From Laccaria trichodermophora (Eukaryota > Basidiomycota > Agaricomycetes > Agaricales > Hydnangiaceae): 64,000 nucleotides of DNA. Every line of letters begins with the position of its first letter. The first letter of the stretch is position 1. The translations under genes and the position numbers were made by a program. Shown one piece after another: positions 5,573 to 56,464 of this stretch. The stretch spans positions 620,001 to 684,000 of the forward strand of contig JACTVC010000020.1 of assembly GCA_018417955.1 (NCBI GenBank). The letters are read 5' to 3'. The notes beneath the pieces were generated by a model. It saw only the letters and a list, made by a program, of their open reading frames with translations. It was not told the origin of the DNA and ran no database searches.

Positions 5573-7695
5573 TTGGGTGTCCCAGTCTAGACTGGCAGCT
5601 AAGTGAAGTAAGATCCTCCAAGATTCCATGCACACTGTAGGTGAGGTGTTTTTGTGTAGTCTTTTCCATAAATCTGTTCGCAACCCTTGAAGACTAGCCT
5701 TACTTTCCACTGGACTGCCTTGCCGTTCTCATTGCATTTGATTCTAAAAATAGGCATGCCTTTTCTGATCTTCTTCCCTTGAGGAACATCTGACCTGGGG
5801 ATTAGTTTGTACACACCCATGTCTTTTAGTGATTTGAGTTCGTCACAATATCCCTCCTCCCATCATTTTCCATCGGCGGACGTCGTAGCCTCTTGCCAAG
5901 TTTTCGGCTCATCCTTGAATTTCAGGGTAGATGGGTCAATCTGTGGCATCTTGGAGATCATGGAAAAGGCTTGATCAATACGTTGCCCTTTGACGTCATC
6001 GAAATTCAGGTTCCGAAGATCTGTTTTAATTCTGCAATGGCCACATTTTCGACGATTTCTGGGATATTTCACGCTTCCTCTTCTTGAATATCTTGAAGAG
6101 TTTTCTTGCAGTCCGTTCGTGCTTCCTGGACTTGAATTCCAGCCTCGATGGAATCTTGGACTGCTCTCTCTGTGCACGTGGGCATTTGTTCATTCGGTTT
6201 TTCAGCTATGTGTGAAGAACGTCTGGGTTGGGCTTCCTTGTTTATAATCACAGGTGGTATGGGTTCTGGTAGATCTAGGTGATGCTCGATGGGTGGTAAG
6301 ACTTCCTCTTCGTCTTCATTGGTCTGAATTGGCGCTGGGGTTCTGCTTGTGAGGATATTGTTCAGCATCATTGGAACCTGAGCCTCTTCCTCGTCTGTAG
6401 GTACAGATGGAAGGTGACCATCATGACTTTCAAGGAAACGTACATGGTAAGAACTGATGACCTTTTTGGAGTCTCTGTGGTAACAGTGGTATGTTTTAGC
6501 TTTCTGATCATAACCAATGAGAACACATTCTATGGAGCGTTCATAAACCTTCAGGTTGTGTTTGTTCTGTATCAGAACGAATATGCAGCACCCTATTTCA
6601 CGCATGTATGAGTAATCAGGTTTTCGTTGATGAAAAATTTCCCAAGGTGTAATGCCGTCTTTCAATGAGTGTGTAAGGGTCTTTGAGTGTAGGTGAGCAG
6701 CCATTAGGTAAAATTCATCCCATAAACAAGGGGGACAGTGAGCATAGATGCACATGGTGCAGGCTTTTGCCATTAAAGTGCGATGCATGTGCTCGACGTG
6801 CCCAATATGAGCAGATGTATAGGGGGCCGTGAATAGTTGGTCTGTGCCTTGAGATTTTAGCCAGGTTTCCATTTTCTCGCTCTTCAGTTCTCCTTGATCA
6901 GTGATGTATGTGCCGACCTTGAGTCCAGTTTCCGTTTCACAAGCTAATTCCCATGCTTTCAGTTCAGGAAAGGAATCGTCCTTGTTTTTTAATGGAATCA
7001 ACCAAAGCAGACTTGTGTAGTCATCTACTGTGTCCATCACATATTCATTGCCAGTGCGTGATCTTATATGTTTCCCCAATAAATCCACCCACACCTTCTC
7101 TAATTTCCTGGTAGCCCTGTGCCCCACCCCCTCTTTATGCATCTTTGGAACTGGTGTTTTGGTCTGCTTCCCCAGAACACAAAAATCACATTTAGGTGGG
7201 TTTCTGGAGGCTAGGTTTGTGGGCATACCTGGTATGATTCCACTCTTCGCCATTTCCTTAACGGCTTGGTAATTTGCATGTCCAAGGCGACGATGCCAGG
7301 TTTCCAGGTCAGGTGCATGTGAGGTTGTAAGAGCATGTTTGGCAAGAGGAGAGTTGAGGTTGAGGGAATAGAGGTTTTTCTTGGCAAGGAGAGAGCCATG
7401 GCAGATGATTGCGCCGTTTGACTTGTTTGTTAGCCAGCAAGAGTTGTTGTCAAAATGAGCGACTGCTTGGCTATCACATGTCAGTGTGCTAACCAAGATG
7501 AGGCGTACTGTCATGTTTGGAATGAATAAAACATTTTGGAGTGTTAGATATGCGCCTCGCACAATGCATAGTTTGACGTCCCCTAGTCTGACAGCCATAA
7601 CAGATGATCCACCTACTCCCTTTACAGAGTGTGCTGTGATTGGTCGAAGCGTCAGGAAGTCTGACTGTTCAGGGGAAATGTGAACAGTAGCTCCT
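5573..7695 (-). pseudogene. Copia-1 pol: protease end, integrase, RT start
   Basis: The main open stretch (7598-6069, 509 codons) holds the GAG-pre-integrase zinc site (WHRRLGH...CDFC) and an integrase core. In the core VWVDLLG carries the first Asp, ITDQGE the second and the VEHMHRTL region the Glu. A C-terminal acidic, proline-rich linker follows. Beyond a frameshift near 6080 the RT N-terminus (RLVFKGCEQIYGKDY, about 5650-5700) and the block ending WDTQQID at 5573 are seen. Upstream, 7600-7690 reads as protease sequence that continues from the gag side across the palindromic insertion. Stops and frameshifts mark it as inactive. Confidence 0.85.
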
Positions 7696-11170: not shown

Positions 11171-11356
11171 TGATAAATAGTCCTAGGGAAGAATGACAGG
11201 ATCCCAAGTTGAATGACATAAGGTAGGTAGAATGAAATAAGACACATATCATTTCATTTGCCTAGCCATTTCATTTCATATTTTTGCTGGGCTGCAAATA
11301 AATGACTGTGCAGGTAACTGCCTAGTATTTATCATATAGGTGGTGCCCACCACTCA

Positions 11357-12621
11357 GCTCCTGTGTCAACATAGAAAGGGAGATCGTCAAGGGAGATAGG
11401 GGTGCGCTTGTTGGTCTGGATTGGAGCAATTTCTGATAGGGCAGCTAGGTCAAATTCTTTTGTGTGATTGTTCCAATCAATAGTTGTCTTTGGCTCCTCC
11501 TCAAGTGCTAACCATCCACTCCACTCGATCTCCTCCATTGTGCTGGGAAGTATGGAATTGACAGAGTCCGTTGCCAATCTGGCAAACTCTGGTTTCATGT
11601 TGTTTGTGGGGGATGAGATGTTGCCAGGGTCAACGTGGATGATGAATGCCTTCCTGTTGGAATCCTTTAGATTAATGGCAACTTTTCCAGTGCTTGAGCT
11701 GGATTTAGTATTGTTCCCCCCTGTGCGGTCCCTAATGCACACATCTTTTGACTCTTGGATCGTCTTTCCTGCCATCCCCCCTCCTGGTGAGATGCAGTAG
11801 AGGCTTGTGTGGCCAGGACGTTTGCAGTTGCTGCAGATCAGGGTGTTTGAAGATTTCACTTTAGATGTGCAAGCAGTGAGAGCGATGTCAGATGATTTGT
11901 CTGCTGTGGCATGGAGAGTTTGTTCGCTCTCAAGATAATGATGGATGTCCTTTGAGGTATATGGTTTTTCCGTTGTCGAGGCACATAGGTCATGTAGGAT
12001 GCTGGAGCAAATGTGGGGAAAATCTTCAAGAGAGTTGATGATGGCTATGCATTGGAATAAATCGACAGTGAACTCTCCCATTGTGAATGCTTGATCTACC
12101 GCGTCACATACTTCACGGCATGTTTGAGGGAGTGGCATACCTTTCTTGCACTTTACATTAAGAGCTGTGCGCAAGAGATCCACCTGCCTAATTGGCCCCT
12201 CATTTAGGTGTTGAACCTTTAATGTGTCCCATGCTGCCTTGGCACCCTTTGCCATGTCGAGTTCCGCCTCATCGTCGTCAGATATGTTCATGGCAATGGC
12301 TGTGTACACAAAGCGATCGTTCTCAATCCAGTTTTCATGGGTGTGTGGTTTGGAGCTGATGGAGGGCTTTGTCTTCTCTCCAAGGATGTAACTGAGTAGG
12401 CCATTGATGGCAAGGTAATGTACCATGTCTTTGCTCCATTTCTTATAGTTTGACTTTAATTTGTCAAGTTTTTCGCCAGCAAAAACATTGTTTGGGTGAG
12501 TGAGGGCAATAGAAGGATGAAGAGCATCTGCTTTGAGCAGTGCTGCATTGAAGGAGGGATTAGTGGCAGTGATGGATTCCTTCAGCGCCATGATGAGAAG
12601 TAGACAAAGGAAGTTTGACAT
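11357..12621 (-). pseudogene. Copia-1 gag and start of protease
   Basis: An open frame of about 420 codons. It has an N-terminal UBN2-type gag region (WSKDMVHYLAINGLLSYIL, then a DTLKVQHL block). A retroviral zinc knuckle follows (CSNCKRPGHTSLYC, C-X2-C-X4-H-X4-C), and the protease signature FYVDTGA comes at the end, where the fold-back element cuts in. Start candidates are the Met at 12621 or the one at 12591. The frame is intact up to the insertion. Because the protease is split, the element cannot make an active polyprotein. Confidence 0.85.
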
Positions 12622-15956: not shown

Positions 15957-16240
15957 GAAGGTACGAAAATAGGTGCCCAATTTGCTATTGGGATGGCCGG
16001 GTGGAGTGATGCTGTCAAATCAAATGCTATCATGCAAGGTTAAAGTGAAAATACAAGACTTGTTTCTGTTTATGTCAATACTAATGTTCTGCAGTCAACA
16101 GTGCACCCATGGGGAGAACGTTTTGGTCAAGGCACTTTGGTTTGTGACGTGGGCAGTGGGATTGGAAACGTAACTACTCTGTTGGCCAAATGGTTCCCAA
16201 CTTTGCAACTGAAACTAGCAAGGAATGAATATTGGCCATG
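15957..16240 (+). pseudogene. O-methyltransferase copy A, 5' fragment
   Basis: The frame reads GAQFAIGMAGWSDAV. A probable intron (donor near 16040, CTAAT branch, TTCTGCAG acceptor near 16092) follows, then HPWGERFGQGTLVCDVGSGIGNVTTLLAKWFP. The latter is the SAM-binding glycine-rich motif of class II plant/fungal O-methyltransferases. The following DLPE-type motif is missing, so a short deletion has occurred. The N-terminal dimerisation part is absent upstream. The fragment stops at the CCATG target duplication of the giant LTR element and resumes at 27142. Confidence 0.75.
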
Positions 16241-16608
16241 TGTAACGGTGTGCTAGTATAAGCTACTCTTGCGTGACCTAGGATCATCGTATTTACTTCT
16301 GTTTACTTCTCACTATATAGTGTCGCTTACAAAATAAATAACACACTTTGCAACCACATCATATATTACATGTGGACGGAGTCACCCCTTTTCTGTACGG
16401 CTAGGCAGCCTTATGCCTCCCCTCCGGGATACAAGAGTCCTGCGCCGGGTGACCGCGCCCCAGTTCCTGGGTCACAGGATAAACTACACGTGGTACCGCT
16501 TTGCGGCACCACGTTACGAACTCTTTCACGCGTACCACGAATATTCTCCGCCGCCATCTCGCACTCGCGCCTTCGTCAAGAAGTCCCGAATCGCCCTACG
16601 GTTTCACA
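16241..16608 (+). repeat. 5' LTR of giant-ORF element
   Basis: A 368-bp TG...CA repeat. It contains a TATA-like CACTATATAG (about 16310) and an AAATAAATA stretch (about 16332), consistent with promoter and poly(A) signals. The giant ORF begins at 16370, inside the LTR. Confidence 0.93.
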
Positions 16609-19600
16609 ATGGTGGGGGCACCGCGGACTTCATCAAGATGAAGTCCCAGAGTGCAAAGACTCGGAGAAACTACATAAGGCAAGTCTGATTGACAGATCCT
16701 GTCAACTCATGACACCTTCCAGAATTCCCAACTCCCAAGTAAACCTAAACCCTAACACAGGCGAGAAAACCGTTGTCCACGCCTCGCATGATGCTCCCAC
16801 ATCCTCGTTAGCGCGAATATCCGCTGCTTTCGAGGGCAACAACTCTGCCTCTCCCTTCCCCACATTAGCGTGGATACCCGCTGCGTTCGAGGAACATGAC
16901 TCGGTTACGACAGACAACGGCTCACAGCCTCCAAAAACCCTAACGACACCAAAGAAGCAACCTCTCCCACCCGACACGAGCTATGCCCACTGCAGTTGTG
17001 CGAGGAACTGCCCTCGCCAGGTCCTTGAAAGCCAAACGATCGTACCCCTAGAGAAATTTCCATTCCGTCAATGCCCTATCGACTACACAAACCCTCGATC
17101 GTGCAAAGACACCAACCCAGTCAGCCAATCCACTCTGGAGACCTCGTTAGCGCGAATAATCGCTGCTTCTGAGGGCAATGATTCAGCTATGACAGACGAC
17201 GCCTCTTCACTTCCCCTATCCATGTTAGCACGTACATCTGTAGCTTTCGAAGATAACACCTTAGCCATGACAGACGTCGACCCTACACCGTCTCTACCCA
17301 CGTTAGCGCGTACATCCGCTGCTTCCGAGGGTAACCACCCAAATCCGATGGATGACCTCTTCGTGCCTCTTACATCCAACATTTTGGAGGGTGATGAAGT
17401 AGCTATGAGGAACTATGACTCGGTGCCTCCCATGCTCGCCACAGCATTCTTATCGACGGCTGTATCACTGGAGGAATTCCCTTCCCGTCATCGCCCTAAT
17501 CACCAATTGCCACCATTTAAACCAGGCGTCTGCGGGCAGATCACTTCGTTGTCCTATTCGACGAAATGGACAATCTACCCTTCCGATGGCGACCGCCATA
17601 AGATCGAATTCCGCAATACCAACCGTTCTACTAGTCACGAAATCGTAGCGTCAATAAGGTCTAGGGAAAGGGGGAAGGGAATGTCGATGACAGAAGAGCC
17701 TGGTATTGAAGTCGATTCTCCCTCTTGTAGTAACCCCATACTCTCGAAAGCGCGAACACCCGCTGCTTTCAAGAGCAATAGTTTGACTACGATGGACAAC
17801 GACTATACTCTTTCCATACCCATGTTAGCGCATATGCCCGCTGCTTTCGGGGATAACGACCCAACCATAATACCCTTTAAGGAATCCTCACTCTATCAAT
17901 ACCCGAGCATTGACCCAGCCAACCAATTCATCCCGGAAAGCTCGTTAGCGCGAAACCCGGCAGCCTCCAAGGACGAGACGACAGACTATCAAACTACCCT
18001 AGCCATTCCTAGACCCTTGGTAGCGCGACTGCCCGCAGCTTATGAGGGTAATCACCCAGTTACAAAGGACGACCACCCCATACCCTCCATACCTGCGATA
18101 GCGCGACTACCCATTGCTTTCGAGAGTAATCTCTCTGTTACAATGGATGACAACTTTACGGCTTCCTGCCCCGTGATAGCGCGATTGCTCGCTGCTCTCG
18201 AGAGCGACAATCTGACTAGGATAAATGACGGCTCTTCAACCTCCATATCTACAATAACACGAACATTCGCCATTTCCGAGGGTAACGATGTGGCTACGAC
18301 AGACCGTGGTTCCAGCTCTTCTGTAACCATGGCGTCATCAGAGCGACTGGAGAGTAGTCCTCCAAATTCTCTGGAACTATCAAGCATGGAAGACATCACT
18401 AATGGATGCTCAATGAATCCGGCTCTCCCCATCAACTCAAGCTCCGCCCGTTGCGATTACTGGTCCTGCTGCCGCCTGCAAAGCCCTGTTAACAAGAATT
18501 TACCCGTGCTGGCGACCCAAGTAATGGTGGCGTCGAAGGAATTTCCACCCTGTCAACGCCCTCATCACCAATCGCCTCCTGTTAAACCTGGCGGCCACCA
18601 AACCAGTGTGATTACCCTCTTGGATCAAGCCGCCTCTAAAAGGGCGAACTCATTACCTGTGCTCATAGAGAAAGGTGCGAACAAAGTGTTCGCCACTCGT
18701 AAGGGCGCAGACAACCTGAGCAACAGCGTCAGTGTCTCATACTATCCAGCTAATCATGATTTCGTGATGCTGTCAATGCCTAGAAGAGAAAAGAGAAAGG
18801 GAGCAGCAATGAAAGAGGAACATGTTTCTGATGCCGCTTACCTCTGGGACAATAGTCCTTCATCTCCATCTGACCATACACTTTTGGAATGGCGCTCGCT
18901 GTTCAAGCTCGGTCAGGCAGATCTATCCTCGAATTCCGCAGCTGTCCAATACGTGAATATGTTGTCTGTGCTCAGTAAAGACACGACTAAGATTCTCGCT
19001 ATTCTGGAGAGCGCGAACAACTCTAAAATGATTGCTCCCCGCAAGATGACGCGAAGGCCCTGGTCCACCAATGTGAACCTACTCATTATCCTCCATGCAG
19101 CATCCCAATTTAAGATTAGGTTCAACAAAAATCAGTCGTCTTTACGGAGCCGAACTGATAAAAAGGACGAGCTGGAAATAACGTCGGTAGAACACAAGAG
19201 CACAACTGAATCTCATGCGGCTCCACAGGATTCTAAACTCACTTCCCCTTTCAATAACAATTCTATGTGCATATCCCAGCCCGAGTCGACGAGTTCCCAC
19301 GTCCTAGACGATATGGGAATGTGCCCGAACCCCGTCGCTCCGCTAAGCATGAATTACTTACCTGTCCTCGGCAAGGGTGCAATTAATCTACTTGCTGCTT
19401 TCACTAGCGCAGTCAATCATAGTCCCAAACCGACCACCTCGAGTAAGATGAATCAAAGGTCTTCGGCTATGGGCGCGACGCAGCTCGCTGCCTTGAGACG
19501 AAGTCCATGGAGACTAACGTTAGACCTTGCTCGAACAACCATGAAGAACGATAACAATCAGAAGAAGTTCACGGAATTGAGATTCAAGGGGGATGAAAAC

Positions 19601-22600
19601 CAGATGCTCCCCTTTTGTCAGACCAGAGCGAGAAATGAGCCTTACAACACTCGACGAAAGCATGAGAGTTCATTCAAGTTTAGTGCGGTCCTCGAGGACA
19701 ATGAGGAGGTCAAGGATCTATTCGACTTGGCGAATCCTACTACCGCTCCAGTGAAACACTCTCCTGGACTCTTTGGCTCCACCATGAATGATAATGTTCT
19801 GTTTTCATCAAGCTTGTTGAACGAATCACTCCTAAATCAAATGAAAGACGAATGTGATCGGTCAAGAAATACTATTGAGTTAGTATACGTAGCTTTGGAG
19901 GTACACTGTTGGGAACACTTGGACGTAACTAAACGAAATTCAGCCAGCCAAGACATCAGTTTGGAGATCCTAGCCAGATGTATCAACCTGATCTTCTCTT
20001 ATGAAGTCGAACATAACCAACTGCTAGAACCTTCCCAAGTAGTTGCGACCATTCATGTAGTCCTACGAGCCCTAGAAGAATTCGTTCCGGATCATCAGAT
20101 TACCTCTTCGCAGTCGCTGACTACTCAAACAAGTCGAGCCAGAACTCCCCCACTCAACCTAGTGTTACGAAATTATCCGGCTAAGACCTCCAAACGCTTA
20201 GTACAGGAAACCAACACACTTTCATGGATGCATGAAGTGAATTCCGATCAGAGGACCACCGGCTTCCACGAACCGACAAGAGTACTATGGCTATTCATCC
20301 CTGGTAGCAGAACTATTAGGAGACAAGTTGGGAAGCTCTTCGCCAAACTGGAGTACTCCGATGAAATACTGAAGGACTTGCAAATCCTGAGAAAGCTTAC
20401 TACTCACCAACCATGCCGAACACAGAATTCGAACAAGGGAGCCGAATTAGACACTACTAGAAAATCGCCAACCCGCTCCGCGAAACTGAATTTTACACGA
20501 AGTTTTACTTTGAGTAAAGGACAAGGCGTCAGGAGGGCTCCAACACAGTGGCCGGAAGTAACGATGGCAAAAGAATCTGTCGTGAGGAGGCTTCCGGTGT
20601 GGACGGCAACCTCGAATGACAGCTCGAGGACGGTAGCTCCTCGTGACAATGATAATGAGCTCAGGGTGCCTGCTGCGTACAGAACGCGCATATCAAGCCC
20701 TAAGACATGCAGTCGCTCTTATCAGTTTGAAAGTGATCTATCGCGCATCCTACTTGCTGCGAAGATAGTCCCAAGGGTAACAAAAGAAGCGAACCTTATT
20801 CGTGAAACCAAAACCAATACTAGAGCTTGGCGAGCTGGGGGGATAAAAGCTAGGAACCTTAAATCTAGTCTCAATCGGCCGTTCGAAGATAGCTTCTTAC
20901 ACGATAACCCCAAGTGTTCCCCTCGAAATCACCCTCGTTTTCGGAGTACTCTTCCGAAGGCTCCTAATGCACCGTTAAATTGGGGCCCCAAGGAGGTAGA
21001 AGTAGTCGATACCCCATGCTCAGAGAAGTGGGCGGAGGCGGAGCCCTATATTCCTGTTTATGAAGAAGACGAGGTAGCGAAAACGTCTGCCCCTCTTTCG
21101 TCGAGAGAGGACTTTGAAACTGCATGGGATCGAAACGTCCTCAGTTACCCTACCAGATACGGCAGAAAGTTAATAGGAGGGTCCATGGGGCGCGAGTTAT
21201 CCGCAGCCTCGGTCCAGAATATCCATAGAGAATTTGTAATTCAGATCATACCTGCCAAGATGCGAACCGTCGACTACGAGAAGGCAGTAAGCTCTACAAA
21301 GCCGAATAAAATTAGCAAAAAGGAATACGTAAGAGATAGAGCCTTGGACGACTCCTTTGATCAACCCTATCCCTTGCAAAACGTGGCGGTTCGCGTGACT
21401 TTCAATGGTATAGGCAAAAGGATAGTAAAAAAAACTGTTGTAACCCATACTATTCCATCCCATCGATGCGTAAGAGCGGTCAAGGTTATCAGATTCCTGC
21501 ATGCCATCATTGTAATGGACGACGACTCACCCCTAGACGAAGAAATTCTCGACAACATAATTCAAGGTTTAGCGGCCATGAAGAATCTAATGGCGGCTAC
21601 TCCTAAGTATGACGTCGGCTTTGAAAGCGAACATAACGAATCTCGAGAACCTAAGACGTCGGTGGGTTCAAGAGATCTGTTAAGTGATGACAAGAGTGGG
21701 ACAATAGATCTTGAACCCAGAACTCCTGAGGAGTATCGAGAAGGGTTATCGGAGAGGTTACGCAGCAATGCTACAACTTTCGGAGTTAGCCGTCACATAG
21801 GGTACATAGACGCGCGAGTCCTCATACTGCTGCTCCTCAACGCCCAACCAATCCCTGAACCAAAATGCGGTGCCTCACTCGCAAGAGAAGAAATCATAGA
21901 TCGACAGCGTGGGACTTGGATTGGAAGAGGAGTAATCAGACCATCCACCCACTCCGAGTCAGGGAAATGCTTAGAGCCTAGCACAAAACCTGTGCTCGAT
22001 GAACTCTCTATGTCTCGACAGTCGGAGATCACGCAGGTGTTATTGAGGGCACGGACAGCGCCACCTTCCTTGGACCATTCAGCTGACACTCAGTTGGCTT
22101 TGCGTTACCCGTCAAGACTACAAGTTCTGACCCCGTTTCTATTGCTCGTCGCATTCGGATTTCGCAAAAACCGGCTTGAAATCAAATCATTAAATGAACG
22201 GGGGGCTACTCTGGATGAGGATTCTGTCCGACTAATCACCTACTGGAGCAGAACGGCGTTGAGATCGACTGAATGCAATTACGACGCCATAGGTCATGAA
22301 ACCCTTGCCATGAAAAGGAATCTCGTGGAATACGCTGCCCTACTAGTCGGGGCGCGAGCTCACGAACACGCCAATCGTCGAGAGGCAGCGTGGGGGGCAG
22401 TGATTACCGCTCACCCAGACCTCAGGATTGTACGCCGAGCAAGTCGGGTCTGCTCTATTGATAATCCTCTATCATGGCTAATACGAAGCAACTATCAAAT
22501 AGCAACGTGGAGAGTGGTGCCTAGGATTGTACGCCAAGCAGAACAAAAAGAAGTCGCCGTACCAACTAACCCCGCTGCCCTAGCTGCAAATAGGGCGCGA

Positions 22601-25600
22601 GTTCACGGGAGCCCCAGACGTCAAATTGAAGTACGGGGGGCAACACCTGTCATTCACCACAATGTTAGGCCTGTACGTCGAGCTGTGGCGGGACGAGAGG
22701 CTGTATACCGAAGCATTGCTCAAGGATTAGATGATTTAAAGCTTGTCGAAACAACGGTCGAAGCTCATACTCACCTCAATCCTGAGACTACACCTGACAC
22801 AAGATGTCCAACCGCACAGGCTTCGGCACATTTGCACTTGGACCGTCACGATCCTGCAGTAAAAAACGGATGGAAGTATCAATATACGACCATATTGCCT
22901 GAATTCGACTCGGACGGGATTGCTCCGTTAGAGTACGATACAACGGCGGAGAACATTGCTCGAAACCCAGCGTACTCAATCGGTACCCGCATTTCTGATG
23001 AATCTCAGGCCAATTCGATCACGGCGTCTAAACCTACGTTCCGTGCCATGCAACAGGAAACCATTCACGAACCGAGTAGTCATACGAGTTGCAAGCTCGC
23101 AGCTGAAGCGAAGCGCGAAGCCTGGATAAGAACCATGAGTGAGAGTCTCAGTGGAAGTTCGAGCTCCGGCGAGACAAAGGACGATACTGTCGTAAATGAT
23201 CTCGAAGATATTCCAACGCGCTCCAAGGTCGACTCTAGGACTCACCAGATAGGAGTCAGACCTTATGAATTTCCGCGGGACGAGGATTATGCAAGACAAT
23301 GGCAACAGCGCACCCCAGTAGACCTGAAAATCCACAAGGAGATTACGAAAGGCAATAGGACGAATGAACCTTGCCCCACTCCTCATTATACTAGGGAGTT
23401 ATTCTATGAGAAACTCTCAAACCCCACGAGCTATCATCATGGAGGACAAAATGAGCCTCCATATCTCATCTACGATGGATGGGAAATATGTCCATATGTA
23501 CCCGAGTTAGAAGTTGACTATATATTATGTTATATGCTTAGATCTCAGGCTTCATATGGGAGAACTCCCTCTGGATCTCGCCGCTTTATAGCGCGACTAC
23601 AAAGGTTGTTTTTCTGTGTGCTCGAGTCAGTAGTCAACTCTATGGCACGACGGAAACATGGATCTCCATATGAGAATACACACGCAGGTCCCCGCCGCTT
23701 CACAGCGCGATCACAAGAATGGTTATCCCAGCCATTCAATAGGAAGAATGTTGAAACTTGCACGCCTACTTTTGAGGCTCAGTGGAAGATTAACTCTGAT
23801 CCCTCTGATCTAACGGGCGTGTTACCGTTCATGCGTAGTATTCCATCGCAGACCTTCCCATTAGTAGTAATGAAAGCCATGTTGACGGAGCTACCAGCCG
23901 CAGGTCCCAGGGAGCGAAAAGAATTCGCCAGACCTTCTATTGAAGGAGTTGTTAACGTATTTGGATTACCTGGAACTGTCGCTTCAAGCCAAGACAATCT
24001 TGCGCTTGCATCAACAAACCACCCGCTAACGGAGGGACAAGTGGAAATTTGCAATACGACTACGGAGCAGACGTTTCGCGTTTACGATTCCCCTGCTGAG
24101 AAGAGCGAGTCGAATGGGCTCCGAGCCCTGATTTATGCGTACTACCACGGCTTACAGTCTTCCACCAAATGGTTTCGGAATCATACCCTATCGACGAGAT
24201 GTAATCGAATAACATCCACTGTGAGCGTGACAATGTCAAAGAACAAACCTCCACACAGACCCTCTCTGCTTAGTCAACTTACAGAAGACCATATCGAAGC
24301 CTTGGTAACTATTCAACTCGTCATCGAAGGGAGTGCTATCACCCTGTTTCAAGATCAGCTAGTAGCTAAAGCCCGCATCGAAGAGGGACGATCCTTTCAA
24401 GAGTTAAGAGATAGTAGAAACTACACCTTATTCAAATTTAACCTTCACTCTCTCAAACCTCTAAAGGATCGTAACACTGGCAAGAAAAGTTTGAAGTACG
24501 GATCTACCTTTGATTATCAGAGGAGTGACAAAACCTCGCCCTTTGACCCTGAAGGAAATCATGACTATCATACCAGCAAGTTAATTCGGCTGAATCAAGT
24601 ACCAGACAATACGAGGAAAGAAATTCTATGCGAACTCCCTAACGACTTCCGCTCCTTCGGCAGAGCGCACAGAGCTCTATGGAGTGTTGTAAGCCAATCT
24701 GGTGTACTGGTTCTTAAGTTCATCAAATCCCTACGAAGCCGCGAACAAGCTCCATCAGCCGTTGCAAATATTGAGGACCAAAGAGGAGCCCCATTCTGGA
24801 TACTGGATCCCGAGGCGAGGATGAAGGAAGCTGGGGACCGCTACATAGGAATATGGACAAATAACACAGAAGAACAACCTACTCAATGGTTCCTGAAGGA
24901 GGGTCTCCATCACGTCACGGCGCGAGAAATTTGGTCCTCTAAGCGCGTACAACTCGCTGCTCTAAAATCAGTAATCGTCTTTGCGATAAGGGTTGCCGCC
25001 GTGTCTATTTGTCACACTCCAACCTTCGACAACTCAGAACGGACCCGAACACGATCAGAAGCTGGCATGGACAACTCATTCATCATCGCCATCAGTGAAG
25101 GTAGACAACTTCGGATCAACGTGCTCTCTTCAGCAAGGAAAGCGGATCTAGCTCATCTTAGTGCTCTCTCGTATGAACCGAGGCGAGGGAACGGATATAG
25201 CAGGAAATTCTGCTTGGAAAGAATCTTACTGGAGGGGTCCGCGAAGAACAGTGGAGATCACCATGCTTGCTCTATGTACTACCGAAATGAGCGTTATCAG
25301 ATTCCGTCCCTTCAAACTCTCATAGTCCCTGATGGATGTGAAGCGGAACCCGACGAATACGAATGGCAGCGCCCCAGAGATGCCCAGGAGGACTTAATCA
25401 GAACGCGAGGGCAATGTATTCAACTTTGCGGGACCTACGAACACTCACAACTTGAGACGTTAGCTGTGTCAAAGGTAACTCCCTGCTCCCTCGTGGAACC
25501 AGAACCCCTCAGGAAGTTTTCTCCTTTGACTCCGGGTGACGTTAGGGACAGCGACACCGATTGTTATCTGGGTACAAATAATGCGGAGGAGTCTGCCAGA

Positions 25601-26254
25601 AATGACCCCAAGAAAATCGATGGTTCGATTAAAAGCGCGACAGACTACTTGCACGCTGCTCAGAGCCCCGAGCGAGAATCCGTTGTCAACGACACGAACA
25701 CGAATTCTAGGGCCGTTCACGAACGGACTCCCCTCTCCGTCATTCAAGCTGATTCAGCTATGGTAACTCATGTGATCCGGCTGAACGATAAATTTCTACC
25801 GGAGGAGGAAGATTCTAATACTAGGACGAAGAGCCCAGACATTCCCTTAACCACACTCTTCAAGGATTTCAAGGTTAGAACGAGAAGAATCGCGACCACC
25901 AACCCATTAGTATTCGCTGCGTCGAACTTTATGTTTCACAGGACACCCTTACGGTTGACCGTTAAACAAGTATACAGAGCCACTCGTATAAGACAAAAGC
26001 AAGATTACTACCAAGAGTTTTTTATAGTAATCCTTGAACAAGCACGTCAATGGGGAATCTACAAGCATCACCAGCAGCAAAATAAGATGGAGCCTTTGGG
26101 ATCCTCCGATGACTATGGAGACTCTGTAGGAGCTCTCGGACGGCCTACTGATACGTGGCACGATCAAGTTCGTCGGTGTGGAACGGGATCCAAACACCAT
26201 TGCATCCATAACTCAACCACCTATGATCCACCCCATTACGCGGGGACTGCATAA
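16370..26254 (+). CDS. 3,294-residue polyprotein-like ORF with vestigial Gypsy domains
   Basis: One uninterrupted frame of 9.9 kb; its first ~80 codons are LTR sequence. Residues about 145-650 carry roughly twelve copies of a degenerate repeat of the type LARxxAAFEGND with acidic spacers. Around residue 1954 the block ITYWSRTALRSTECNYD...HETLAM and then SIDNPLSWLIRSN resembles the Gypsy RNase H segment (YYSRxLxxxExNY, the KELLAI Glu, the TDHxPLxWL Asp). Near residue 2531 a segment with FGLPGTVASSQD and HPLTEGQVEICNTTTEQ resembles the end of a Gypsy integrase core. It keeps the GQxE glutamate but has lost the SD aspartate. I see no YxDD, no D[TS]G protease and no zinc knuckle. Function unknown; translation of this whole length is unproven, but the lack of stops argues for constraint or recent origin. 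Confidence 0.75.
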   Translation: MWTESPLFCTARQPYASPPGYKSPAPGDRAPVPGSQDKLHVVPLCGTTLRTLSRVPRIFSAAISHSRLRQEVPNRPTVSQWWGHRGLHQDEVPECKDSEKLHKASLIDRSCQLMTPSRIPNSQVNLNPNTGEKTVVHASHDAPTSSLARISAAFEGNNSASPFPTLAWIPAAFEEHDSVTTDNGSQPPKTLTTPKKQPLPPDTSYAHCSCARNCPRQVLESQTIVPLEKFPFRQCPIDYTNPRSCKDTNPVSQSTLETSLARIIAASEGNDSAMTDDASSLPLSMLARTSVAFEDNTLAMTDVDPTPSLPTLARTSAASEGNHPNPMDDLFVPLTSNILEGDEVAMRNYDSVPPMLATAFLSTAVSLEEFPSRHRPNHQLPPFKPGVCGQITSLSYSTKWTIYPSDGDRHKIEFRNTNRSTSHEIVASIRSRERGKGMSMTEEPGIEVDSPSCSNPILSKARTPAAFKSNSLTTMDNDYTLSIPMLAHMPAAFGDNDPTIIPFKESSLYQYPSIDPANQFIPESSLARNPAASKDETTDYQTTLAIPRPLVARLPAAYEGNHPVTKDDHPIPSIPAIARLPIAFESNLSVTMDDNFTASCPVIARLLAALESDNLTRINDGSSTSISTITRTFAISEGNDVATTDRGSSSSVTMASSERLESSPPNSLELSSMEDITNGCSMNPALPINSSSARCDYWSCCRLQSPVNKNLPVLATQVMVASKEFPPCQRPHHQSPPVKPGGHQTSVITLLDQAASKRANSLPVLIEKGANKVFATRKGADNLSNSVSVSYYPANHDFVMLSMPRREKRKGAAMKEEHVSDAAYLWDNSPSSPSDHTLLEWRSLFKLGQADLSSNSAAVQYVNMLSVLSKDTTKILAILESANNSKMIAPRKMTRRPWSTNVNLLIILHAASQFKIRFNKNQSSLRSRTDKKDELEITSVEHKSTTESHAAPQDSKLTSPFNNNSMCISQPESTSSHVLDDMGMCPNPVAPLSMNYLPVLGKGAINLLAAFTSAVNHSPKPTTSSKMNQRSSAMGATQLAALRRSPWRLTLDLARTTMKNDNNQKKFTELRFKGDENQMLPFCQTRARNEPYNTRRKHESSFKFSAVLEDNEEVKDLFDLANPTTAPVKHSPGLFGSTMNDNVLFSSSLLNESLLNQMKDECDRSRNTIELVYVALEVHCWEHLDVTKRNSASQDISLEILARCINLIFSYEVEHNQLLEPSQVVATIHVVLRALEEFVPDHQITSSQSLTTQTSRARTPPLNLVLRNYPAKTSKRLVQETNTLSWMHEVNSDQRTTGFHEPTRVLWLFIPGSRTIRRQVGKLFAKLEYSDEILKDLQILRKLTTHQPCRTQNSNKGAELDTTRKSPTRSAKLNFTRSFTLSKGQGVRRAPTQWPEVTMAKESVVRRLPVWTATSNDSSRTVAPRDNDNELRVPAAYRTRISSPKTCSRSYQFESDLSRILLAAKIVPRVTKEANLIRETKTNTRAWRAGGIKARNLKSSLNRPFEDSFLHDNPKCSPRNHPRFRSTLPKAPNAPLNWGPKEVEVVDTPCSEKWAEAEPYIPVYEEDEVAKTSAPLSSREDFETAWDRNVLSYPTRYGRKLIGGSMGRELSAASVQNIHREFVIQIIPAKMRTVDYEKAVSSTKPNKISKKEYVRDRALDDSFDQPYPLQNVAVRVTFNGIGKRIVKKTVVTHTIPSHRCVRAVKVIRFLHAIIVMDDDSPLDEEILDNIIQGLAAMKNLMAATPKYDVGFESEHNESREPKTSVGSRDLLSDDKSGTIDLEPRTPEEYREGLSERLRSNATTFGVSRHIGYIDARVLILLLLNAQPIPEPKCGASLAREEIIDRQRGTWIGRGVIRPSTHSESGKCLEPSTKPVLDELSMSRQSEITQVLLRARTAPPSLDHSADTQLALRYPSRLQVLTPFLLLVAFGFRKNRLEIKSLNERGATLDEDSVRLITYWSRTALRSTECNYDAIGHETLAMKRNLVEYAALLVGARAHEHANRREAAWGAVITAHPDLRIVRRASRVCSIDNPLSWLIRSNYQIATWRVVPRIVRQAEQKEVAVPTNPAALAANRARVHGSPRRQIEVRGATPVIHHNVRPVRRAVAGREAVYRSIAQGLDDLKLVETTVEAHTHLNPETTPDTRCPTAQASAHLHLDRHDPAVKNGWKYQYTTILPEFDSDGIAPLEYDTTAENIARNPAYSIGTRISDESQANSITASKPTFRAMQQETIHEPSSHTSCKLAAEAKREAWIRTMSESLSGSSSSGETKDDTVVNDLEDIPTRSKVDSRTHQIGVRPYEFPRDEDYARQWQQRTPVDLKIHKEITKGNRTNEPCPTPHYTRELFYEKLSNPTSYHHGGQNEPPYLIYDGWEICPYVPELEVDYILCYMLRSQASYGRTPSGSRRFIARLQRLFFCVLESVVNSMARRKHGSPYENTHAGPRRFTARSQEWLSQPFNRKNVETCTPTFEAQWKINSDPSDLTGVLPFMRSIPSQTFPLVVMKAMLTELPAAGPRERKEFARPSIEGVVNVFGLPGTVASSQDNLALASTNHPLTEGQVEICNTTTEQTFRVYDSPAEKSESNGLRALIYAYYHGLQSSTKWFRNHTLSTRCNRITSTVSVTMSKNKPPHRPSLLSQLTEDHIEALVTIQLVIEGSAITLFQDQLVAKARIEEGRSFQELRDSRNYTLFKFNLHSLKPLKDRNTGKKSLKYGSTFDYQRSDKTSPFDPEGNHDYHTSKLIRLNQVPDNTRKEILCELPNDFRSFGRAHRALWSVVSQSGVLVLKFIKSLRSREQAPSAVANIEDQRGAPFWILDPEARMKEAGDRYIGIWTNNTEEQPTQWFLKEGLHHVTAREIWSSKRVQLAALKSVIVFAIRVAAVSICHTPTFDNSERTRTRSEAGMDNSFIIAISEGRQLRINVLSSARKADLAHLSALSYEPRRGNGYSRKFCLERILLEGSAKNSGDHHACSMYYRNERYQIPSLQTLIVPDGCEAEPDEYEWQRPRDAQEDLIRTRGQCIQLCGTYEHSQLETLAVSKVTPCSLVEPEPLRKFSPLTPGDVRDSDTDCYLGTNNAEESARNDPKKIDGSIKSATDYLHAAQSPERESVVNDTNTNSRAVHERTPLSVIQADSAMVTHVIRLNDKFLPEEEDSNTRTKSPDIPLTTLFKDFKVRTRRIATTNPLVFAASNFMFHRTPLRLTVKQVYRATRIRQKQDYYQEFFIVILEQARQWGIYKHHQQQNKMEPLGSSDDYGDSVGALGRPTDTWHDQVRRCGTGSKHHCIHNSTTYDPPHYAGTA
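16610..16628 (+). other. Putative primer binding site of giant-ORF element
   Basis: TGGTGGGGGCACCGCGG starts one base after the 5' LTR. Its complement ends in CCA preceded by TGCCCCC and a discriminator A, which fits the 3' end of a tRNA whose acceptor begins GGGGGCA (possibly tRNA-Ala). The tRNA identity is inference. Confidence 0.55.
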
Positions 26255-26773
26255 TCGGGAATGACGCCTTTCGAGTAAACGTCGTAGATCTACACCGCCA
26301 AAACATTATCAAGAACTTCGGTTCGACACGTAAACCCCCAAAGACATCAGTGGTCGCCCATTCTCCTTCCTCACCAGATAATTCACTTGCTGCTCACCAT
26401 ACGAGTCTCACTCCTACCTCCTATCTTCTGCGCCCCAGTCATCACAGACTTACTATCCAACTCCCCATGGCCTTACGGCGCGAAGGGTATCTCTACCTGA
26501 CTCTGTTACATTGAGTTCTACCTGGCCATGAACGGCGCGACAACGCTACCTTTCTCAGAACCCGATGAGTATCATTGCCTCCATTATTTCACATCGACCC
26601 TGCCGATGACTGTCTGATGTCTAACTGCCCGGCTAAGCTGTTCAAGTCAAAGCGAAACGACGGGATGAACGTAGTATGAGGCTGTCAACAGGTCAAAGAA
26701 GATACCACAAGAAACTCAGTGGAAAGGGAACGATTGCGCCCATGGTCGATGCTCCAATCTCACGGGGGGGCTT
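26255..26773 (+). other. 3' untranslated part of giant-ORF element with polypurine-like tract
   Basis: About 520 bp between the stop and the 3' LTR, with no open frame of note. It ends in CACGGGGGGGCTT (26761-26773), a short G-rich tract that could prime plus-strand synthesis, although three pyrimidine-containing bases separate it from the LTR. Confidence 0.5.
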
Positions 26774-27141
26774 TGTAACGGTGTGCTAGTATAAGCTACT
26801 CTTGCGTGACCTAGGATCATCGTATTTACTTCTGTTTACTTCTCACTATATAGTGTCGCTTACAAAATAAATAACACACTTTGCAACCACATCATATATT
26901 ACATGTGGACGGAGTCACCCCTTTTCTGTACGGCTAGGCAGCCTTATGCCTCCCCTCCGGGATACAAGAGTCCTGCGCCGGGTGACCGCGCCCCAGTTCC
27001 TGGGTCACAGGATAAACTACACGTGGTACCGCTTTGCGGCACCACGTTACGAACTCTTTCACGCGTACCACGAATATTCTCCGCCGCCATCTCGCACTCG
27101 CGCCTTCGTCAAGAAGTCCCGAATCGCCCTACGGTTTCACA
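26774..27141 (+). repeat. 3' LTR of giant-ORF element
   Basis: A 368-bp copy identical to 16241-16608 by direct reading. The same ATG opens a frame here that runs out of the LTR into O-methyltransferase sequence and stops near 27205. Confidence 0.93.
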
Positions 27142-28080
27142 CCATGAAACTGTCCAGAAGCTATCAGAGAAAAGAGGATCGAGTTCCAGTCAATGGATTT
27201 CCTGACCGAGTCTCCAATTAAAAACTGTAATGTGTACTTGGTGAGATGAATTTCAGCGCTTCTGTTGGCTGCGCTGAAGCTTTACTCATTTTTATTAATC
27301 GTAGCTGAAGAATATCATGTAAGTAGGTCTCCGATCTCACCCTTAACTCAAACAACTGTGTACTCTGTCTCTTGCATATCAGTCACAACTGGCCTGACAC
27401 TGATAGCATCAAAATTCTAACAGGCGTGCAGAAGACAATGTGAAGCATTCACTCTGAACTTCTCGCATAGCTGAAGCCAAGAGGGAAGGAGGAGGCAAGA
27501 ATGGGTGGATCTGGGATCAACACCCATGAGTGAGCAATGAGCAGTTACAAGATACTCAGCTGGCCCAACATGATTATGCATACTGTAGGAAGTACAGTTA
27601 TACAAAGCACTACATGTAGTGCAAGAGGATGGCAAGACTGCTGACAAGGTGGTGGTTCAAGACAAAAGATCAATATTTTATGTAAGATATCCAAATCTAG
27701 CTATATACCACTGTTTGACTATGGCCTCTGGGCATTCCCTTCCAATCCTATATCACAGACAATGGCTCCATACAGTCGCGTCCTCGTCCATGAGTGACCT
27801 CCATTTGCCCTTCATATCATAATTGCTAAAGTCAAGTAATTACTACATTAATCAAATAGATGAGTATGTTCTACAGGATGCCAACAAATGTTCCGCAGAC
27901 TTGCCTGCCAGTGGTTTATTCAAGCCCGCTCCCGAGCCTCTTCTGTCGCAGGATTCGGCAGTATAACCACATGATGGTTGTATTGAACAGCATGGAGCGC
28001 TGCTTCCATGATTTTATTAGGCTTGGGAATGTGGCAGGTTTGCAGTTTGGGATCTTGGGGATATGGGAGCTGTAGAATAT
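27142..28080 (+). pseudogene. O-methyltransferase copy A, 3' part
   Basis: After the CCATG duplication the frame continues ETVQKLSEKRGSSSSQW. After a gap that may be intronic, it shows WPDTDSIKILTGVQK (27390-27433), the conserved DWPD...KIL region of O-methyltransferases. A solo LTR (27439-27757) interrupts that exon, which resumes as MAPYSRVLVHE. The last exon has RQYNHMMVVLNSMERCFHDFIRLGN near 27955-28030, the usual C-terminal helix region. The enzyme class transfers a methyl group from SAM to a hydroxyl of a small metabolite. With two LTR insertions and deletions this copy cannot be functional. Confidence 0.8.
27439..27757 (+). repeat. Solo LTR, family S319, copy 3 (in O-methyltransferase A)
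   Basis: A 319-bp unit TGTGAAGC...TATCACA with perfect 5-bp duplication GACAA (27434-27438 and 27758-27762). It splits the exon encoding the conserved DWPD region. Confidence 0.92.
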
Positions 28081-28349: not shown

Positions 28350-28538
28350 TAAAGATCCTCCGACGACGCTAGCCGATTCTGCAGCAGCAAGGTCATCACA
28401 TCCAAGGGGTGCAAGCAGAGCCCAAGGAACTGAGGCGGCAAAAATAGGATAACCAATAGAGGCGTGCCTCAATAATAGCGGTTAAACTATTAAGAACAGA
28501 TACTACACTTGATCTAAGCCAAGAAGGCCAGAGTGGTG
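28350..28538 (-). ncRNA. U2: U2 spliceosomal RNA, copy A
   Basis: The minus strand begins about CACTCTGGCCTTCTTGGC and continues TTAGATCAAGTGTAGTATC. This is the near-invariant U2 5' region, including the GTAGTA branch-site-pairing element, followed by TGTTCTTAATAGTTTAAC. Stem-loop II sequence and an Sm-like site CCTATTTTTGCC follow. The 3' end is estimated from the usual length of about 190 nt, because the homology to copy B runs further. A TATA box (ATATATAAGG on the minus strand, about 28562-28572) lies some 25-35 bp upstream. The RNA base-pairs with the intron branch site in the spliceosome. Confidence 0.85.
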
Positions 28539-28561
28539 AAGATGTAAGGAGGCTGGCAGGG

Positions 28562-36022: not shown

Positions 36023-39000
36023 CTAGCGAAAGTTCTGATCCTCATAAAACGTGGACAGATCAATGTACTTGTTGAGAGAGAAATGCTTGCAGTTGTCGAG
36101 AATTTCGAGATGGGTCCATTTGGCAGGGTAGAACTTGGTGCCAAATTTCGGAATGAGGTAGCAGCTCGAGACAAGATCACGGATGGGAACGATTTCAGCG
36201 ACAGGGCGGCCGTGGGCAGATGAGCGTGTAACGGAATAGAGGCCGGAGTCGGGATCAGGAGCTCGGAGAGGGTTAAACCACTTGATGTAAGCAAGGAACT
36301 TGGGAATAGAATGGTTGTGACGAAGATGATCTGGGAGCGCAAAGAACATGCGCACTTGCGCTACCCGAAGGCCTGTGAAAACGAAAATGTGAGCTGACGA
36401 TGTTTGTGAAGGATGAAGGTGGCCGCACCTTCCAAGTAGGTCCCCTTGGTGACCTCATTCCTGGCTTCACCCTCGGCCCTAACCAAAACGATGTCAAAGC
36501 TTGCCGCAGAGTCTTTCCGAGGTCCAGGGATCAACGGCACTGCACGAATGCGTTGCAGGATATTGCTGCGCCCCGTAGCAGGGAGGTCGTGTAAATGAAT
36601 GGATAGACGTTTGAAGGTGTCGAATCGATCAGTTGGGTTGGGGAGGATTGGTTGTTGAGGAGGTGGGAAGTGACGTCGAATAAACGTTGTAAGAGCAGGA
36701 AGGAAGTCGGTTGCATGAAAGCGATTGACGATGTCCTCAAGATTGACTAAGGGGAAACTGGGCTTGACTGGAAGATGGTGGGTGATGGGTAGGTCGTTGT
36801 TGGATGTCGGTTCATTGTCGTTGATGTCGTCAACCGTGGGGTCGATGTCACTCATGTGACTGGTCCCTTCAAAGCTGTCACCAATCTCCTCATCATCGCT
36901 TTCCAGGTCGTCTAACTCCTCACGCCGCAAAAGCCAGTCGAGGTATGCTCTGAAACGTTCCGTTGCTTCCCGGCGGTCAAGCCACTTTGTCATCTGTGCC
37001 ACAAAGTCACGCTTGTTGCTTGCTCGATAACCATCTTTCGCGAAATCGATGTGGAGCCGTTCGGACCACTCTGTGTTGAAACCATCGGCAGAGCCTCGTG
37101 ACTTGATGGCCTCGACATAGTGAATCATTTGATGAAGCTTTGGTATGTTGAAGTTCTCTCGAATGCCTTGCCGTATGAAAACATCCTTATTTTCGTGGAA
37201 CATCTTCAGTGCGTCCTGCAGTGCGTTCAGGGTTTCCGTGGTATGTACTTGCAGGCGAGCGTAATAGATAAAATCGATGACCACCCTTGCTGTTCGCAGG
37301 ACCTGAGGTTGCACCGCTCCCACAAGAAGACCTACAAACACGCACTGCATCTCTTTATGCTCAGTGCCCGTCCACTGCGACACATGTGAGATCCCGTTCT
37401 TGAAGTGCCGAAGACCAGGATAGCCTGGCATGCTACGGAATCTTTCATCCAACTCAGCTTCTCCCGCCACCTCGACACACCATTTGACCAAGTGATCGTG
37501 GAACACGCCTTTGTGAAGTTGGTGGAGAAGATCAGGCGTGAAACACGAGAAGATGTCGCTATGTGGAAGGTTCGCCCAGAACGGCTCCCAAACTGGACGT
37601 ATCCCCTCATCATTGAATTCTGGAACCCGTCGCCCAGATGCCTTGTGCTTGAGCATGACTTTGGTACGCTCCTCGTCACGTAACAATGACTGGACAAATG
37701 ACCCTCTGTCTCCAGGTGCCACCAAACACTTCGGACAGTAACTCTCCTTGCAGCATGCCACCAAGCACTGCTCTGGAAAGTCCGCGACATATGCAGCCAA
37801 GAGAGGGAAGACTCGACGAATGAAGCCATCCGCGCAAACAACGTCCACACCATCTTTGCCTGCCTCGACAATTGGGCTTAGGATTTGGGTCATGCAGTAG
37901 TGGAACAGGCGGTAACCCTCCTCTGAGCGTGAGGCATCGGTGTAGTTGTCTAGCTTGGCGACAGGAAGGTACCCGATGAGGACAGTCGCATGGGCAGTGG
38001 GCTTACGGCGCTTGTCTTTCTCTATGTTGCCGATGGTCAAATATACCGGCCACGCCTTCTTGTCTCCTCGGAAAGTGGACAAGTGTGTTTTGTCAGTCGA
38101 AAGAATGATAGCCGCAATTGTTGATCCAATAGGTAATTTTTTCTGATCAGTCGGTGAGATATTTGTTTGAGCGTTCTTTCAAACACACTGACCTGAGTGT
38201 CCCACCACCAGCTGGCCATCCACATCTCATCATACACCCTGTTCTTTCCCTCACGATCTGTGTACGCTCGTTCAGGTGCATATTGCAGCGCATCTCTGAA
38301 AGACTCATTCCCCATTAATTCTTTTATGACCTCAACAGGATTCCGTCGCCAAAGTTCAAGCTTCTCTGGGGGCATGGGCTTCCCATCATTAATGGTGCGG
38401 TTCCCTGGTGCGGTAACAATGTCACATATCCATCGATCCCTGTGCGTGGGTAGGGCATCGATCTTTTTTAGAAAATTGCGGTTGCTGTTGTAAGACGGCT
38501 TTGTTCAATCGAGCTCTTTACACTCCCCCACCTATTCCTACTGGACTCCTACTGGATTCCCGGACTCCTACTGGATTCTACTAGGACTCCAGCCAATTTC
38601 ATATTGCCTGAACACCATACAAATTTTGCATCTCAGTCCTACTGGAGTCCTAGTAGATTCCTACTGGAATGATCCCAAATCACAAGGAATTAAGGATTCC
38701 TAAGGAATGGGTATAGTGGAGTCCAGTACAAGGAGTCCAGTAGGAGTCCAGTAGGAGTCCACTAGGAATCCAGTAGGAATTTCCGAGTACCAGGAGTCCA
38801 GTAGGACCACAGTTTGTCACTGTTATTGTTATTAATATAATATAAAAATAAAAGTGCAACATCGGAAATCGAACGCTCGACCTTAGCATCAAGGTGCCAC
38901 AATTAAGGGAAGCGCTCGAACACCTAGACCACGAAGGCTTTATTATAGGTATGTACTTTAACCTACACATACCTACAGCTCGGCTGCTTTCCCAGAACGA

Positions 39001-56274: not shown

Positions 56275-56464
56275 ATAAAGATCCTCCGACGACGCTAGCC
56301 GGTTCTGCAGCAGCAAGGTCATCACATCCAAGGGGTGCAAGCAGAGCCAAGGAGCTGAGGCGACAAAAATAGGATAACCGATAGAGGCGTGCCTCAATAA
56401 TAGCGGTTAAACTATTAAGAACAGATACTACACTTGATCTAAGCCAATAAGGCCAGAGTGATGA
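56275..56464 (-). ncRNA. U2: U2 spliceosomal RNA, copy B
   Basis: The minus strand reads CACTCTGGCCTTATTGGC and TTAGATCAAGTGTAGTATC, the U2 branch-site-pairing region, then TGTTCTTAATAGTTTAAC and the Sm-like CCTATTTTTGTC. It differs from copy A by a few bases (stem I loop TTATT vs TTCTT; GAACCGG vs GAATCGG). The 3' end is estimated. The TATA box ATATATAAGG lies upstream at about 56488-56498. Confidence 0.85.

Follow-up and report, generated by a model that had tools for sequence, protein, structure and literature searches.

A young long terminal repeat (LTR) retrotransposon of Laccaria trichodermophora contains a single open reading frame (ORF) of 3,294 codons, and comparison of its genomic copies indicates that strong selection keeps this frame open whilst its amino acid sequence is not selected, or hardly so. 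The element lies in a 64-kb stretch of DNA (hereafter the window; G000:C13:620001-684000), to which coordinates without a contig name refer, and its relatives were sought in the host genome (59 Mb in 77 contigs). Judged from its sequence, it is a non-autonomous Ty3/gypsy derivative devoid of reverse transcriptase (RT). Full-length translation in cis probably, if by no means securely, shields its RNA from nonsense-mediated decay (NMD), with mobilization in trans by an RT-bearing family. More tentatively, it may represent a class of LTR element in which the frame is purely a translation shield, its readability being selected and its content not, in escape from NMD.

An open frame with little constraint on its protein

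The base composition of the ORF predicts approximately one stop every 21 codons, giving a frame of 3,294 codons a probability of about 10^-69, and the remaining five frames over the same stretch contain 138-208 stops. Together these figures rule out a chance frame. An antisense coding frame is likewise ruled out by the 138-192 stops in the three antisense frames, and a stop-poor mutational bias by the stop-rich other frames together with five nonsense changes among sister copies.

An LTR search yielded 261 candidates, of which 40 matches were listed; 20 copies were analysed in addition to the window copy, with C45, C34, C7:216k, C9, C4:407k and two sites at C23 listed but outside the analysis. 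Subfamily A includes six further copies, each with an identical LTR pair and a 5-bp duplication. Five hardly differ from the window copy, except for deletions in two, and the sixth (C43; G000:C43:16452-27351) combines an LTR 94% like that of the window, with an end resembling those of C24 and C1, with two halves at 99.5-99.6%, a mosaic that points to template switching between lineages. Lineage C comprises C67, C11:434k, C6, C12 and C76, and lineage D comprises C11:96k, C37, C33, C19 and C26. Related LTRs are also found in C24, which forms its own lineage, and in C1, C15 and C3, which are probably older. Both LTRs were found in 18 of the 21 copies, with 0-2 mismatches between them over the matched part (the first LTR bases were not compared in C and C24); this count of young copies omits C1, C15 and C3, in each of which one LTR was found. 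In 11 of these 18, a single frame measuring 3,149-3,565 codons between stops is still open. Four others have one in-frame stop (A_C7b, D_C11, C_C67 and C_C6), C24 has two, A_C43 has a 1-nt deletion and an insertion interrupts C_C12. The lineages have homologous frames: A and C share ~29% amino acid identity over long stretches, and aligning the proteins of different lineages gives values down to E < 1e-90. Lineage C also contains internal repeats that are ~75% alike (e.g. nt 518-1603 of the C_C67 ORF), and C_C11 differs from three other C copies by an in-frame length of 540 nt.

Selection on openness emerges when differences within lineages are set against those between them. Within lineages (seven A, five D and four C copies, each compared with one reference copy, C_C12 being omitted for its insertion), the ORF body shows 141 differences, comprising 41 synonymous, 95 missense and five nonsense changes, where the neutral expectation is.285,.681 and.034, respectively. 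Between A and C_C11 there are 871 synonymous and 2,104 missense differences, with no internal stop among the 2,975. A McDonald-Kreitman-type test gives p 0.85 for missense against synonymous changes (95/41 within, 2104/871 between) and p = 1.8e-7 for nonsense changes (5/141 within, 0/2,975 between), or 1.0e-6 if one codon pair touching the terminal stop is counted. Simulation with no bar on stops produced 104-118 stops per pair of 2,500-codon sequences. New copies thus acquire stops at the neutral rate, and those that carry them seem not to found enduring lineages. Of the gaps between A and C_C11, 76 of 108 have a length divisible by three (p 7e-15), as do 75 of 103 between A and C76, 58 of 91 between C24 and C76, and 5 of 11 between C_C11 and C76.

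Constraint on amino acids was assessed in ORF DNA aligned frame-blind (MAFFT), with the first 750 nt excluded and changes counted by codon position. In the A-C_C11 alignment, 7,401 of 7,991 columns are in phase and identity at positions 1/2/3 is.593/.601/.590; the corresponding values are.600/.610/.587 for A-C76,.568/.550/.550 for A-C24,.597/.578/.586 for C24-C76 and.972/.971/.974 for C_C11-C76. Lineages A, C and C24 are thus ~40% diverged with approximately equal change at all three positions, and 600-nt windows reveal no consistent codon-position trend along the ORF. Well-aligned stretches alone diverge by.353/.350/.379,.347/.374/.369 and.363/.379/.357, and the independent pair D-C1 shows 315/374/351 differences at 1354/1356/1355 sites (.233/.276/.259). 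Estimates of dN/dS (w; kappa 4) are 1.03 (0.94-1.12) for A-C_C11, 1.01 (0.93-1.09) for A-C76, 1.06 (0.96-1.18) for A-C24, 0.98 (0.89-1.08) for C24-C76, 1.16 (0.98-1.54) for C_C11-C76, 1.06 (0.90-1.26) for C24-C3 and 1.04 (0.87-1.25) for A-C3; lineage D was not paired with A, C or C24 because these alignments are unreliable (50-59% of columns in phase). In simulations of four replicates each, the estimator returned 1.01-1.20 where stops were barred and amino acids unconstrained, 0.78-0.97 for a true w of 0.7 and 0.61-0.64 for 0.5. We take the true w of the body to lie near 0.85-1.

The Copia element of the window served as a control and showed what constraint looks like in this genome. Places matching the full query have DNA identities of 98, 97 and 95% (C35, C25:193k and C34:2471k) and 92, 92, 92 and 90% (C8, C25:214k, C16 and C1), with amino acid identities of 97, 96 and 94% and of 93, 92, 92 and 91%, respectively. 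In neutral simulation, amino acid identity is 85.5% where DNA identity is 92.6%, and 82.3% where it is 90.8%; with w 0.15-0.3, amino acid identity is 91-94% at about 93% in DNA. Shorter matches include C56 (92% DNA, 89% amino acid), and fragments are mixed (C34:848k, 86% DNA with 83 and 78% amino acid; C31, 86% for both). As the Copia amino acid identities exceed the neutral expectation, the comparison does detect protein constraint in this genome, more clearly in full-length copies than in fragments.

A preliminary description of this DNA, made from the sequence alone, had proposed that the frame is selected or that its protein matters. The nonsense test and the lack of internal stops between A and C_C11 uphold the former proposal, and a body dN/dS near 1 goes against the latter. 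It had also treated random stops and dN/dS near 1 as joint marks of a frame with no coding role; of these, dN/dS near 1 was found, and internal stops are absent between A and C.

A number of observations weigh against this interpretation. Choosing A and C_C11 for their intactness excludes stops on their last branches from the outset, although the choice affects only the few differences that arose there. The excess of three-multiple gaps is weaker in A-C24 (62 of 115), and in local blastn alignments many pairs have mostly non-three-multiple gaps, though these are compensated and most columns are in phase; the listed out-of-phase stretches are open in both copies, and their identity of 51-72% allows for misalignment. 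The estimator is slightly inflated at w = 1, such that a true w of 0.85-0.95 is possible. Protein-guided alignments give between-lineage dN/dS of 0.38-0.70 among the values listed, which we tentatively attribute to alignment being pulled towards amino acid similarity. Over the initial 750 nt, copies of the same lineage differ most often at position 3 (20/22/44, p 0.002), and w for this leader is 0.74 (0.65-0.96; 75 codons) in C24-C3; other between-lineage leader values are 0.97, 1.14, 0.54, 0.91 and 1.05, with intervals including 1. The N-terminus may therefore be under some constraint, or have been exchanged recently with coding relatives, as the mosaic C43 suggests. Finally, codon composition is non-random and alike in A, C, D and C24 (G1.281-.286 and G2.171-.178, against.238/.223 expected for random open sequence). 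Another Gypsy pol in the genome is similar (G1.306, G2.165), so this composition may be inherited.

Structure and Ty3/gypsy ancestry of the element

The features of the element are collected in Table 1. It has the TG...CA ends, 5-bp duplication, primer site and polypurine tract of an LTR retrotransposon. Its 368-bp LTRs show no differences between 5' and 3' copies and the flanking CCATG copies form a perfect duplication, in agreement with the preliminary description of a young element. The ATG context, LTR end, primer region with hairpin and polypurine tract are nearly invariant across the copies compared, and the ORF body is variable. A primer tRNA was sought for the primer site and not identified. 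None of 100 shuffles folded as well as the native leader by minimum free energy (MFE). Six of the 11 intervals between the 46-nt repeats measure 78 nt (26 codons), and GAN codons are frequent in the ORF.

Table 1. Features of the LTR element and their positions in the window
Feature	Position	Strand	Remarks
Whole LTR element, 10,901 bp	16241-27141	+	LTR pair and duplication
Left target-site duplication CCATG	16236..16240	.	
5' LTR, starts TGTAACGG, ends TTTCACA	16241..16608	+	
Structured 5' leader RNA (381 nt)	16340..16720	+	MFE z -4.6; predicted fold
Open frame, 3,294 codons	16370..26254	+	ATG within 5' LTR; spans primer site
Primer-binding region and hairpin ATGGTGGGGGCACCGCGGACTTCATCAAGATGAAGTCC	16609..16646	+	Nearly invariant, 11 copies compared
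46-nt repeat, 12 degenerate copies, inside ORF	16803..18294	+	
Remnant of Gypsy region just upstream of RT, codons 1731-1862	21560..21955	+	43-51% amino acid identity to most matched Gypsy places
Site of lost RT core, 68 codons	21956..22159	+	Against ~311 codons at C12
RNase H remnant, codons 1931-2039	22160..22486	+	46-58% amino acid identity to most matched Gypsy places
Integrase remnant, codons 2397-2709	23558..24496	+	~40% identity to Gypsy family; without H2C2
Polypurine tract CAATCTCACGGGGGGGCTT	26755..26773	+	
3' LTR	26774..27141	+	Same sequence as 5' LTR
Right target-site duplication CCATG	27142..27146	.	

Motif searches of the ORF found no YxDD, C-x2-C, zinc-knuckle, H2C2 or hydrophobic-D-[ST]-G motif. 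Its sole Pfam match is RT_RNaseH_2 (E 0.17), with no gag domain, and a search against PDB sequences gave no match up to E 10. These results agree with the preliminary description, which had noted a single ORF without YxDD, protease-type or zinc-knuckle motifs. Pfam searches of the ORFs of other lineages returned weak, unrelated matches alone (E 0.13-0.47), and the viral contigs searched held four pattern matches and no relative.

Gypsy ancestry is apparent in remnants that retain the RT-RNase H-integrase order of a gag-pol polyprotein. At an RT-bearing place on contig C12, RVT_1 (3362750-3363211) lies between the matches to the ORF at 3362327-3362716 and 3363650-3364024. The matches of C24, C67 and C76 cross the RT place without a gap of the ~311-versus-68-codon size, so the loss of the RT core is common to A, C and C24. 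In lineage D and C1 the lesion is another one: the region can be aligned to the pol of another Gypsy, except at the YIDD box. The traces of RNase H and integrase had earlier been read as those of a non-autonomous element with a 'rebuilt' Gypsy polyprotein; that origin is confirmed, and the ORF is, from these alignments, better described as a decayed polyprotein that lost its RT core in frame. An ordinary autonomous Ty3/gypsy was rejected, as there is no RT core, and intact RT and integrase catalytic residues were not found.

The preliminary description had called for a search for an autonomous Gypsy with the same 368-bp LTR ends and primer site. A Gypsy family that has RT and integrase domains and shares the LTR end and primer site was found. 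A 33-nt pattern covering the LTR end and primer region (three mismatches allowed, genome-wide) occurs at 186 sites and its reverse at none; the first 24 bases of the primer region, with the LTR end, form the part common to this RT-bearing family. At least 27 of 100 listed primer sites are followed, on the same strand, by one of the 150 listed RVT_1 matches at a distance of 3.5-7 kb (median 5.3 kb). The longest open frame at these 27 sites has 2,970 codons, and eight frames have 2,870 or more. Eleven of the 100 have a listed RVT_1 match at 7-30 kb and 62 have no listed match within 3.5-30 kb. In one member (G000:C12:3357352 onward), a 2,956-codon frame encodes both RVT_1 and Integrase_H2C2. Together, the sites followed by RT and the integrase-bearing frame establish that RT and integrase occur in a family whose ends match those of the window element, and we infer this family to be its autonomous partner. 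The two share the LTR end and primer region (at most 3 mismatches in 33), with mostly 43-58% amino acid identity around RT and RNase H, and differ in that the family has RVT_1 and Integrase_H2C2 in its single frame.

At C12 the RT-bearing family also seems to contain another open frame downstream of pol, of ~1,160 codons; codons 2711-3092 of the window ORF match it (G000:C12:3366599-3367897 and similar places), and the two frames appear fused in the ORF. A separate Gypsy inside the C3 copy (L047:4275-6725, L048:3-4499) has a chromodomain, RT, integrase and weak gag and protease matches. Elsewhere in the window are a Copia element (44138-48331, +) in which the gag and pol frames are long, other Copia-type pieces (6069-7598, -; 11332-12621, -), a Plavaka transposase (36361-38082, -) and a CxC5 cysteine cluster of the type linked to KDZ transposases (50809-51900, +). 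The last two features point to a basidiomycete host. Two full-length U2 small nuclear RNA matches (28354-28539, -, 92.4 bits; 56280-56462, -, 90.3 bits) lie 28 kb apart, one of them just downstream of the LTR element.

Candidate explanations for the open frame

The comparisons above demonstrate the open-but-neutral pattern, and from it we infer a mechanism. The 5' LTR has a TATA-like box near 16316, the ATG at 16370 is the first after it, and its context is also present in the other copies inspected. The element's RNA would start just upstream of this ATG, with the frame covering nearly the whole of it. Stops and uncompensated frameshifts would be selected against everywhere except in the last ~1 kb. 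Were ribosomes to stop early, the 3' untranslated region (UTR) could reach 10 kb and NMD would destroy the RNA; if the frame stays open almost to the 3' terminus, the RNA would remain intact for packaging and reverse transcription by helper proteins. The terminal stop is the only one in A, C_C11, C76 and D_C37, with one internal stop in C_C67 and two in C24. The frame ends 870 nt before the 3' LTR in D_C37, 519 nt in A (the window copy included), ~170 nt in C24 and about the LTR edge in C; in D_C11, which also has an early stop, it ends 1,047 nt before. An untranslated tail of up to ~1 kb therefore seems to be tolerated. UPF1, UPF2 and UPF3 domains were found in this genome. According to passages of PMC5031192, NMD generally becomes more likely when the 3' UTR is excessively long, and an early role in defending cells against retrotransposons, by checking foreign RNAs for their translation pattern, has been proposed for it. 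The tolerated tail, the UPF1-3 domains, this rule and this proposal together make NMD escape the explanation we hold most likely. In the basidiomycete Cryptococcus neoformans, part of PMC5006051 reports that UPF1-3 exist and that most alternative splice-site events rising in a upf1 mutant shift the frame; the same part reports, as a point against NMD as the agent, that intron-retaining transcripts are mostly unaffected by its loss.

The main rival is that full-length translation in cis serves another need, with the ribosome or nascent chain bringing the RNA to particle assembly, or ribosomes shielding it from Dicer or nucleases. This predicts the same open-but-neutral frame and has parallels in narnaviruses, for which both an open complementary-strand frame that yields no functional protein and shielding by ribosome cover have been argued (part of PMC8155312), and in a Culex narnavirus, the persistence of which is reported to need reverse-frame translation (part of PMC8316113). 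It is nonetheless rather unlikely here: in the account given in part of PMC4974528, Ty1 and Ty3 Gag capture or recruit RNA, for which a whole open frame is not obviously needed, and the helper proteins are presumed to act on the window element in trans.

If instead the frame encoded a long, acidic, disordered bulk polypeptide, with composition and length rather than sequence being selected, the shared codon composition of A, C, D and C24 and the common GAN codons would be accounted for. We consider this improbable, as slow decay from a coding Gypsy could yield the same composition (compare the other Gypsy pol above), and intact copies vary from 3,149 to 3,565 codons among lineages. A fast-evolving protein in conflict with the host, in which positive and purifying selection average to w ~1, would fit an open, translatable ORF with between-lineage protein alignments at E < 1e-90. 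It is very improbable given that missense/synonymous counts within lineages (95/41), between them (2104/871) and at neutrality (.681/.285) agree, that windows along the ORF reveal no consistent codon-position trend, and that no domain or catalytic motif was detected in it. An ordinary dead or recently broken Gypsy, open merely through lack of time, would have identical LTRs like those observed; this explanation is practically negligible, being already contradicted by the RT loss that A, C and C24 share at ~40% divergence, over which free evolution would have left ~110 stops per pair.

Significance and relation to known elements

Long open frames are usually taken as evidence of a protein, yet here ~10 kb has been kept open over ~40% divergence with little or no protein constraint, from which it follows that openness alone can be a selected trait of an LTR element. 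This urges caution in annotating such frames as genes. It also makes directly testable the proposal (as put in passages of PMC5031192) that NMD originated in checking foreign RNAs by how they are translated. If the translation shield is real, it would be a direct genomic signature of NMD as a retroelement defence. Nonsense against missense changes, within and between lineages, offers a clean test that is applicable to other non-autonomous families.

Non-autonomous LTR families are known, and open frames lacking a functional product have been argued for narnaviruses; the literature searched, mainly titles, abstract openings and openly accessible papers, yielded no LTR element that combines the two in a frame kept open lacking amino acid constraint. 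LARD, TRIM and TR-GAG are classes of non-autonomous LTR families that an autonomous partner maintains. The window element resembles them in retaining LTRs, primer site and polypurine tract whilst having lost its enzymes, and also in sharing its genome with an RT-bearing family whose ends match its own. A LARD is a long LTR element with an internal part lacking an open frame, from which the window element differs by its 3,294-codon frame under selection for openness. TR-GAG and other coding non-autonomous elements have a gag protein under purifying selection, in contrast to an ORF body with w near 1 and no gag domain found. Non-autonomous members of the wheat Angela family have numerous frameshifts and stops (as described in part of PMC9744471), unlike the window element with its one uninterrupted frame. 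The non-autonomous Athila families of Arabidopsis, in the portion of PMC2410132 drawn on here, are likewise Pol-less, with intact ORFs, and active as families; those ORFs are under purifying selection, whereas amino acid change in the window family is near neutral along the body. Ambigrammatic narnaviruses share with the window element a long open frame, the product of which is argued to be non-functional in their case (sections of PMC8155312), although theirs lies opposite the coding forward strand of an RNA virus, whereas that of the window element is the one long frame on the sense RNA of an LTR element.

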